Assembly: GCA_023300545.1 (NCBI GenBank)
Contig: JALZVT010000098.1
Span: 1-64,000, forward strand
Source of the DNA: Pseudomonadales bacterium
GTDB lineage: Bacteria; Pseudomonadota; Gammaproteobacteria; Pseudomonadales; Azotimanducaceae
DNA: 64,000 nucleotides
Reading direction: 5' to 3'
A program made the translations under genes and the position numbers. Positions 9,555-62,453 of the stretch are shown here, one piece after another. The notes under the pieces are model-generated. The model had not been told where the DNA came from. It ran no database searches and saw nothing but the letters and a program-made list of their open reading frames with translations. The stretch's first letter is position 1. The number at the start of each line of letters is the position of its first letter.

Positions 9555-9586
9555 GTAGGCGGGGGTCAGATTAATTCTGACCCCCG
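9555..9586 (+). repeat. REP-like palindrome, copy 1
   Basis: GTAG (9555-9558) precedes an 11-bp perfect stem: CGGGGGTCAGA (9560-9570) and TCTGACCCCCG (9576-9586) around TTAAT. A second copy with the same GTAG head lies at 61558-61584. A GTAG tetranucleotide followed by a palindrome is the hallmark of REP elements. It lies just after the GST stop, but no T-run follows on either strand, so it is a poor intrinsic terminator. Confidence 0.7.
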
Positions 9587-9593
9587 TTGGCAG

Positions 9594-10217
9594 TTAAGCT
9601 GAGGCGCTCGGGCGCGCTTTCATGCGCTCAAGCCAGGCGCCGATGTTCTTGTTTTCTGGGTTGATGGGCTGACCCACACTTTCGCCAAAAATCATGAAGC
9701 AGTACAGCAGAACATCAGCCAGCGACAGTTTGTCCCCGCCAACAAATTCACGACCTTCCATCAGGCCGTCGAGCCAGCTGATCTTTTCCTGAGCGATGCC
9801 CTTAAGCTTGTCTGCGGCTTCAGGAATCATTGTCATACGCGACTCAAAGAGTGGCTTGCCTTCCGAATAACGAAAGCCATTGGCTAGCGGTTCACAGACG
9901 TTGAGGTCAACGCGTCGAGCCCACATTCGGTTGCTAGCGCGCTCTTCTGGCGTGTCGCCCATCAGTGATTGACCCGGGAATTTCTCGTCGATGAACTCAC
10001 ATAACGCTGTAATTTCGGCAATATGTTGGCCGTCGTCGGTTTCGATGCAGGGAGACTGGCCGCCCGGATTCTTTGCAAGGTACGCAGGCTGACGGTTCTC
10101 ACCGGCCATAATATCGACCGTGTTGATTTCCATATCTTTTTCGAGATCGACGCCGCGTTCGGCGGCAAACATACGCACAACCTGTGGGTTTGGTCCTACG
10201 GAATTGTAGAATTTCAT
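9594..10217 (-). CDS. Glutathione S-transferase family protein
   Basis: A 207-residue cytosolic GST. The N-terminal thioredoxin-like domain begins MKFYNSVGPNPQ and includes NPGGQSPCIETDDG, where the cis-Pro glutathione-binding loop sits, then AEITALCEFI. The all-helical C-terminal domain carries the N-capping box SLADVLLY. A GGGAG Shine-Dalgarno precedes the ATG by about 6 bases. It lies 45 bases downstream of the glyoxalase-fold gene on the same strand, so the two probably form a glutathione-linked detoxification operon. Substrate is unknown. Confidence 0.9.
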   Translation of the reverse strand: MKFYNSVGPNPQVVRMFAAERGVDLEKDMEINTVDIMAGENRQPAYLAKNPGGQSPCIETDDGQHIAEITALCEFIDEKFPGQSLMGDTPEERASNRMWARRVDLNVCEPLANGFRYSEGKPLFESRMTMIPEAADKLKGIAQEKISWLDGLMEGREFVGGDKLSLADVLLYCFMIFGESVGQPINPENKNIGAWLERMKARPSASA

Positions 10218-59972: not shown

Positions 59973-61527
<1,555 letters not shown>

Positions 61528-61557
61528 GTTCAGGTTGTTGGCTTATAGCTAGAGAAG

Positions 61558-61584
61558 GTAGGGGTCAGAATAAATTCTGACTCC
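61558..61584 (+). repeat. REP-like palindrome, copy 2
   Basis: GTAG (61558-61561) overlaps the start of arm GGGGTCAGAA (61561-61570), which pairs with TTCTGACTCC (61575-61584) around TAAA, with one G-T wobble. It shares the GTAG head and the GGGGTCAGA / TCTGAC core with 9555-9586. It lies between ilvC and pssA, in a non-coding gap as expected of REPs. Confidence 0.7.
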
Positions 61585-61640: not shown

Positions 61641-62453
61641 ATGACAAAGAACTCAGACAGAGACCCTAAGCCCAGCGTGCATCTCATTGATGATGGTCTG
61701 ACGCCGGCAGACGAACGGGACGCGGTACGTTCGCCGCGTAAAGGCATTTACTTGCTGCCCAATCTCATTACCAGTGGCGCCCTGTTTGCGGGTTTTTACG
61801 CCATGGTCGCCAGTATGAATGGGCATTACATACCAGCTTGTCTGGCGGTTATTGCGGCTCTGTTACTTGATACCGCTGACGGTCGTGTCGCGCGGTTCAC
61901 CGGTACTGAATCCGAATTTGGGGCCCAATACGACAGCCTGTCGGATATGGCAGCCTTTGGTGTCGCCCCGGCGTTGCTCATATTCTCCTTTTCGCTCTCC
62001 GGCCTTGGACGGCTTGGCTGGATCGCCACCTTTATTTACATGGCCTGTGCTGCGTTGCGCCTTGCGCGGTTTAACACCGATAGCGATCTGAAGTCGTTCA
62101 CTGGCCTTGCCAGCCCTGCCGCGGCCGTTATTGTGGCCAGCCTGGTGTGGCTATTGGTTGATGAGGGGTATCCGGACGCCTTTGCCCAGCTTTGGCTGCC
62201 CTACGCCTTGGCTGCCGTGACGGTAGCTCTCGGCCTGCTTATGGTTTCGCCCATTAGGTATTTCTCCCCAAAGGTCATCGATTCTGGCCATCGTGTGCAA
62301 TTTATCACTCTGGTAGGGGTTGTTCTGGCCTTTGCCATCGTAATTGCGGAACCACCGCGGGTCTTGCTGGTCTCGTTTAGTGTGTACGCGCTATCTGGCC
62401 CGGTATTTTACCTGGTCGGCATGCTGCGGAAACGCTCTTCTGTATCTGACTGA
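61641..62453 (+). CDS. pssA: CDP-diacylglycerol-serine O-phosphatidyltransferase
   Basis: A 270-residue membrane enzyme of the CDP-alcohol phosphatidyltransferase family making phosphatidylserine. Its signature DGRVARFTGTESEFGAQYDSLSD fits DG-x2-AR-x8-G-x3-D-x3-D; the catalytic Asp residues are in helix 2-3. About eight helices are visible. This is the integral-membrane (Bacillus/Pseudomonas) type, unlike the phospholipase-D-like PssA of E. coli. CAGGAG precedes the ATG. Position after ilvC and before msrP is as in pseudomonads. Confidence 0.92.
   Translation: MTKNSDRDPKPSVHLIDDGLTPADERDAVRSPRKGIYLLPNLITSGALFAGFYAMVASMNGHYIPACLAVIAALLLDTADGRVARFTGTESEFGAQYDSLSDMAAFGVAPALLIFSFSLSGLGRLGWIATFIYMACAALRLARFNTDSDLKSFTGLASPAAAVIVASLVWLLVDEGYPDAFAQLWLPYALAAVTVALGLLMVSPIRYFSPKVIDSGHRVQFITLVGVVLAFAIVIAEPPRVLLVSFSVYALSGPVFYLVGMLRKRSSVSD

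Follow-up and report, generated by a model that had tools for sequence, protein, structure and literature searches.

A REP-like, RAYT-associated palindrome family with an AGGCA head in a draft genome of Azotimanducaceae

Two palindromes in the window and their genome-wide family

The stretch of DNA analysed here, called the window throughout, comprises 64,000 nt (JALZVT010000098.1, positions 1-64,000) of a Pseudomonadales bacterium (Azotimanducaceae; assembly GCA_023300545.1). Two palindromes were found in it, both intergenic, one beside the end of a GST-like gene and the other between ilvC and a pssA-like gene. The features are as follows.

9557..9561, + strand: tag AGGCG of copy 1, one-sided, directly at the palindrome foot (family consensus AGGCA)
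9560..9586, no strand assigned: palindrome of copy 1, core GGGGTCAGATTAATTCTGACCCC at 9562-9584 plus one further CG/CG step
9594..10217, - strand: GST-like gene, its stop 9 nt from copy 1
60508..61527, + strand: ilvC (ketol-acid reductoisomerase); copy 2 starts 33 nt behind its stop
61556..61560, + strand: tag AGGTA of copy 2, one-sided (family consensus AGGCA)
61561..61584, no strand assigned: palindrome of copy 2, GGGGTCAGAATAAATTCTGACTCC, with a G-T pair left by a single substitution in one arm
61641..62453, + strand: pssA-like gene, downstream of copy 2 and in tandem with ilvC

The letters, the folding and the gene positions at both places confirmed the original prediction of two intergenic palindromes preceded by GTAG. 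Whether copies 1 and 2 were folded as RNA or as single-stranded DNA, 0/200 dinucleotide shuffles were as good in each case. Copy 1 falls one base short of the family consensus of 24 bp. The nonamer GGGGTCAGA occurs three times in the window, compared with 0.31 expected from 100 shuffles, and an ungapped scan of the window with the 24-bp consensus, allowing up to 6 mismatches, gave no third copy. No Rfam family reached its gathering score in the window or in the locus of the genome's own RAYT (L032). Because the stop of the GST-like gene is only 9 nt away, copy 1 would form a 3′ hairpin of that transcript, if it is transcribed that far.

Copies 1 and 2 are members of a family found throughout the genome, GGGGTCAGAATNAATTCTGACCCC. 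The assembly is a 4.78-Mb draft in 177 contigs, with 3.22% contamination. The pattern GGGGTCAGAN{0,20}TCTGAC gave 84 forward matches in it and the reversed control gave 0. Among the matches listed for a covariance model built from 31 oriented copies, and containing the tag, 102 distinct places, spread over 51 contigs, remained after removal of opposite-strand doubles. When up to 4 mismatches were allowed across the 18 arm positions, 114 distinct copies were counted in the sequence fetched from this genome; 79 of them were flawless, and the 8 that had 3 or 4 mismatches may partly reflect chance. Covariation within the family was thin, one pair having changed on both sides in 2/31 sequences. The prediction of a REP-like family thus held, with about 100 copies in the genome, and the copies are REP-like in the wide sense of a short, mostly intergenic palindrome in many copies: of 104 copies only 3 lay inside ORFs, with 18 unclassifiable.

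The strict form of the pattern was counted 80 times in this genome and 0-2 times in each of 57 relatives, only 5 of which had any. In a sample of the class (369 genomes, this one included) 22 had at least one strict palindrome and the next highest count was 16. The family is lineage-specific. No printed mention of the palindrome was recognised among the literature matches listed, from a search that lay mostly outside subscription journals. As side observations, a family copy 2 kb from the RAYT gene (L032:2581-2611) has a longer GC-rich inner part, GGGGTCAGAAGCGCCTGCGCATTCTGACCCC, the letters of which resemble a stretch at the RAYT 3′ end, and two genomes of the class (G209 and G461) carry another double hairpin, distinct from this family and of low copy number, GGGGTCAGACCCC ... 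GGGGTCTGACCCC.

The AGGCA head and the position behind genes

A GTAG shared by both copies had been taken as the signature of the family. The four letters are indeed present before both palindromes, but their registers differ. The GTAG of copy 1 (9555-9558) overlaps the AGGCG tag and ends 3 nt before GGGG; that of copy 2 (61558-61561) shares its final letter with the start of GGGG. The constant register in the two window copies is that of AGGCG and AGGTA, each one letter off AGGCA. The GTAGs, composed of GT plus AGGCG and of AGGTA plus G, are most likely there by chance.

The head was counted in 104 copies (208 half-sites), of which 55 came from loci of the first pattern, 45 from loci chosen off the covariance list and 4 from loci of the GTAG search alone. 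The family tag was AGGCA, directly at the stem foot. At least four of its five letters stood at the foot in 61/208 half-sites, compared with 1-9/208 at six other offsets, and the exact tag letters there were AGGCA in 26 cases, AAGCA in 10 and AGGCG in 10. Counted per copy at the same threshold, the tag was on one side in 55, on both sides in 3 and on neither in 46; if the sides were independent, 8.8 copies with both would be expected, and only 7/2000 shuffles gave a number as low. Of the 52 copies that were found without the GTAG search or the model, 21 had GCA on one side only, 31 had it on neither and 0 on both. Orienting the copies by their best tag match inflates the logo letters from -4 to -1; position -5, the only letter free of orientation bias in the 52-copy subset, was A at a frequency of 0.73 versus 0.35. 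An unpaired and one-sided tag, as in REP-like elements, is therefore present.

GTAG placed 0-2 nt before the foot was found in 0/208 half-sites, although 77/104 copies have flawless arms. GTA followed by a G overlapping the foot occurred in 3/208 half-sites, GTAG ending 3 nt before the foot in 4/208, and GTGG in 1/104 half-sites. In the whole genome GTAGN{0,4}GGGTCAGA gave 8 matches, compared with 6 for the reversed control. GTAG as the family head was rejected on these counts, and that part of the prediction is not supported.

Gene context was assigned with a home-made codon-usage ORF caller. Of the 104 copies, 48 were between convergent, 28 between tandem and 7 between divergent genes, and the 18 unclassifiable ones were at edges. 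Convergent placement thus accounted for 48/83 classified intergenic copies, compared with 6/41 gene pairs of the window. An adjoining gene 3′ end lay within 60 nt in 111/124 cases, with a median distance of 21 nt. In only 5/111 cases was the hairpin followed by a T-run such as an intrinsic terminator would have, defined as 6 or more T among the next 8 nt.

Nine close pairs of copies were present. Their tags pointed clearly outward in L056, L062 and L227, weakly outward in L276, clearly inward in L065 and weakly inward in L274, and were unclear in L012, L044 and L067. The pairs with outward tags are suggestive of a REPIN arrangement, which is not firm because only 3/9 were clearly outward and one was clearly inward.

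The region behind ilvC was compared in 17 relatives (160 nt each, 61 nt in one), the presence of pssA not being confirmed in every one. The palindrome was found in 0/17, and the stretches were too diverged for an empty site to be read base by base. The genomes searched included none of the same genus, and no movement of a copy was observed. Behind ilvC, L237 has a lone CTGACCCC, and L250 (G004:C1) has a classical GTAG-headed inverted pair, GTAGGAGCGGCTTTAGCCGCGA with nearly its reverse complement further on.

The RAYT-type gene and its relatives

As predicted, a RAYT-type gene was found outside the window. No Y1 transposase was found within the window, and the sole match of the genome to Pfam Y1_Tnp was at C74:63-389, within an ORF of 200 aa (C74:24-626); a second, much weaker relative was seen at C52 (E 2.2e-4). 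A family copy with the head ATAAGGCA starts 9 nt behind the RAYT stop (636-659). C74 begins 23 nt before the RAYT ATG, and neither an overlapping contig nor the RAYT 5′ end on another contig was found. Of the predicted flanking by the same palindrome, the downstream copy is thus in place and the upstream side is missing from the assembly, so that flanking on both sides is demonstrable only in relatives. The outcome that had been named as fatal to the prediction, only two copies and no RAYT gene, did not occur, and the designation REP-like and RAYT-associated holds because there is a genome-wide family and a RAYT-type gene with an adjoining copy.

The C74 protein scored 63.1 bits against NCBIfam NF047646 (REP_Tyr_transpos), below the cut-off of 80. 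Besides Y1_Tnp no Pfam match was found in it at E 0.1, a threshold at which a weak domain may be missed. An AlphaFold2 model (mean pLDDT 90) had as its best solved match TnpAREP 4ER8, which is bound to a REP hairpin (Foldseek E 1.7e-7). VIA-align 2 gave Z 16.9 for 4ER8, with an rmsd of 2.8 over 154 aligned residues; the second-ranked entry reached Z 10.5. The two histidines of the HUH motif (H60-V-H62), Y120 and N124 were invariant across 47 aligned sequences, and the protein thus has the HUH motif, the catalytic Tyr and the TnpAREP fold of RAYTs. In Escherichia coli TnpAREP, W94, Q95, E100, H101 and R104 concern the GTAG region, the role of W94 being described as unclear (PMC6006769). In our reading of one alignment the corresponding places are F99, E100, S105, T106 and C109 of the C74 protein, with 0/5 kept.

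At the RAYT 3′ end (L032:580-720) two copies of GCGGCCCCTCATAA were seen, followed directly by a longer related stretch that ends in TTCTGACTCC. No other exact match to the 14-mer GCGGCCCCTCATAA was found in the genome, and a search allowing as many as 2 mismatches gave 36 matches, compared with 68 for a control. A longer composite repeat as the family unit was rejected, as it has only these two exact places, both at the RAYT 3′ end.

The ends of related RAYT units were informative about the palindrome arm. Around four RAYTs of 46-50% identity (L071, L072, L073, L076) the units measured 785-832 bp and were bounded by inverted repeats beginning GGGGTCAG; in three of the four they began GGGGTCAGAG and also carried AGAGTA or GGAGTA as a second motif. 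Other relatives in this comparison did not show the exact tip at both ends. In a wider set of 80 named relative loci, 78 of which had enough flank, GGG[T/A]CAG facing outward was found upstream of the RAYT in 61, downstream in 53 and on both sides in 49. Controls gave 4 and 9/78 for the wrong orientation and 3 and 4/54 at 900-1200 nt away. The tip was absent on at least one side in 29/78. TIRYT genes are bounded by inverted GGGGWSAS repeats; of such bounds the relatives showed outward GGG[T/A]CAG on both sides in 49/78, and for the C74 gene only the downstream side could be read.

In L132, L146, L149, L174, L191, L196 and others, (G)GGGTCAGA lies in a hairpin loop, and the stem letters vary with complementarity kept. 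A hairpin with GGG[T/A]CAG in the loop and a stem of at least 5 was found at 20/115 tips of relatives, compared with 43/1150 shuffled ones. It does not describe the palindromes of this genome, in which the motif is in the stem.

The strict palindrome was also counted in genomes of 46 of the 80 relative loci, chosen by eye for GGG-type ends; two of the 46 (L168 and L183) appear to be genomes also seen as G015 and G213. It was found in 13/46, and 44/46 had 0-3. Only two exceeded this, Marinobacter pelagius (G084) with 141 and Marinobacter sp. Bin_10 (G101) with 64, and both have near-complete palindromes at both RAYT ends (L163, L194). The ends of L175 are self-complementary too, with other letters outside the counted pattern. 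In 71 Marinobacter copies from fetched stretches, the palindrome, GGGGTCAGATGAAAGCTTTCATCTGACCCC and variants, was 30 bp long in nearly all, and a TGAA-like tag stood on both sides, 3 nt outside the foot; GT[AG]G 0-2 nt from the foot was found in 0/142 half-sites. The G084 palindromes often stand in close series, mostly 37-81 nt apart (L326-L345). The counts, the arm motif and the TGAA-like tag of Marinobacter argue for a parallel expansion: palindromes armed with the end motif have multiplied, under different heads, in two lineages that appear to be separate.

The association between palindrome and RAYT was compared in 80 genomes of the class, namely all 21 others with the palindrome and 59 of the 347 without it, the latter taken down the list with small or incomplete ones passed over by eye. 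A RAYT relative at E <=1e-30 was present in 15/21 genomes with the palindrome and in 12/59 without (Fisher p 7e-5, the groups not being matched for size or kinship). At E 1e-3 the numbers were 19/21 and 26/59 (p 2e-4, likewise unmatched), and no RAYT relative was found at this threshold in G434 and G313, which have 1 and 3 palindromes.

Probable spread of the palindromes and comparison with known systems

We consider it likely that the palindromes are a REP-like, non-autonomous repeat spread by the C74 RAYT-type enzyme by way of tag and hairpin. The unit would be the 5-nt tag (consensus AGGCA) on one side together with the 24-bp self-complementary hairpin formed in single-stranded DNA. The HUH-tyrosine enzyme most likely recognises tag and hairpin on the single strand, and it would cut beside the repeat with Y120 and join elsewhere, like TnpAREP and IS200-type enzymes. 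By analogy AGGCA would replace GTAG as the guide; PMC8266576 gives GTAG a role in binding and in cut-site choice by TnpAREP. As copies multiply, the survivors would be mainly those a few nt behind stops, above all between convergent genes, and they would be kept behind stop codons because they do little harm there. RNA hairpins could then form at 3′ ends on either strand, with a possible role in RNA. The palindrome itself is probably two terminal inverted repeat tips of the GGGGTCAGA type, from this enzyme's own RAYT group, joined head to head, and tip joining is the route that PMC6006769 suggests for double-foot REPs. Counting against spread by the C74 enzyme are the 46/104 copies with no recognisable tag on either side and the 44/46 RAYT-bearing relatives in which this palindrome did not expand.

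The crowding of copies behind gene 3′ ends, the excess of convergent neighbours and the very stable RNA hairpins would also be expected if these were gene-end hairpins, that is bidirectional terminators or 3′ stabilisers multiplied by selection without any transposase. This we regard as unlikely: T-runs are rare, selection for hairpins needs neither an identical run of 24 letters nor a one-sided AGGCA, relatives have few or no copies of the palindrome, with none seen behind ilvC in the 17 compared, and a copy adjoins the only Y1_Tnp gene found. A hairpin role may possibly have been gained after spreading. With its perfect 24-bp dyad symmetry and its roughly 100 copies, the palindrome would suit a dimeric DNA-binding protein, and sites for a regulator, a nucleoid protein or a segregation protein could have been spread by selection. 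The copies lie behind genes and not before them, with only 7/83 between divergent genes, the tag is one-sided, and the RAYT link would be left unexplained, which makes binding sites very improbable.

In Neisseria, inverted pairs of uptake sequences are used as terminators, and the inverted arms behind genes might be taken for such pairs. Uptake sequences are mostly single. Here GGGGTCAGA without a partner arm accounted for only 4/187 distinct contexts in fetched sequence of this genome, a figure that favours pairs because the sequence was fetched around palindromes, and no single copy stood in the 64-kb window; a DNA uptake sequence is hardly to be expected. Equally hard to credit is a canonical GTAG REP most of whose copies have lost GTAG by decay. 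In the two window copies GTAG lies no more than 3 nt from the foot, and a few half-sites of the family have GTA at the foot or GTAG 3 nt away, but the absence of GTAG at 0-2 nt from arms that are mostly flawless, the head ATAAGGCA of the copy at the RAYT itself and the lack of all five GTAG-region residues (residue list from PMC6006769) speak against it.

Beyond spread by the C74 enzyme, it is conceivable, although we hold it only tentatively and on balance doubt it, that the REP head is a re-writable guide, and that tip joining in the RAYT group with GGGG ends yields a spreadable palindrome to which each lineage gives its own head. The heads would be AGGCA here, a TGAA-like one in Marinobacter and GTAG in the classical group. 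If true, this would show how RAYT units with terminal repeats at their ends give rise to REPs, and the head code could be read from the enzyme sequence. The origin of REPs and the choice of REPs by RAYTs are open questions on which this group bears, as it occurs in two states, as single-gene units with ends in many genomes and, in two apparently separate lineages, with about 100 copies of a palindrome that has the same outer letters. Because of these two states and the heads other than GTAG, the guide role could be tested by swapping heads and enzymes in vitro.

Compared with GTAG REPs and REPINs and their RAYTs, the family resembles them in its short hairpin with a one-sided 5′ tag, its roughly 100 copies behind genes, its few inverted pairs with outward tags (3/9), its one RAYT and the 4ER8 fold. 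It differs in its tag (AGGCA and not GT[AG]G), in the GTAG-region residues that are not kept and in a palindrome arm that is the end motif of related RAYT units. With IS200/IS605 elements, in which a guide tetranucleotide lies 5′ of the hairpin (PMC6006769), it shares the HUH-Y1 catalytic core; unlike in these, no other Y1_Tnp gene was found in the genome, and the related RAYT units end in inverted repeats.

The Marinobacter palindromes share the outer nonamer, go with RAYTs from the same group, at 44 and 42% identity, and stand on both sides of the L163 RAYT. They differ in being 30 bp long with a two-sided TGAA-like tag, as against 24 bp and a one-sided AGGCA.

The inverted ends around relatives of the C74 transposase match the published TIRtron/TIRYT kind. 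TIRtrons with TIRYT transposases and the motif GGGGWSAS were described by Di Nocera et al. 2013 (PMC3733652), and that paper includes moderately abundant families of terminal inverted repeats, some of them self-complementary and occurring as dimers or in clusters (S. maltophilia ORF 1152). The likeness lies in GGGGTCAG, which fits GGGGWSAS, in the RAYT-like gene and in the inverted ends. The matching kind is probably in part TnpAY1 subclass 2.1, equal to RAYT group 1: in PMC6006769, 20 of the 26 of Di Nocera et al. are placed in subclass 2.1, the members have a C-terminal extension resembling helix-turn-helix domains, and no REP-like sequences were found near the gene there. By comparison, the C74 enzyme has 200 aa and no Pfam match besides Y1_Tnp, and the repeat, in contrast to those of TIRtrons, combines a palindrome of 24 bp with an AGGCA tag on one side. 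The REP-like, RAYT-associated kind is already known; new here are a REP-like family with an AGGCA head and its Marinobacter parallel.
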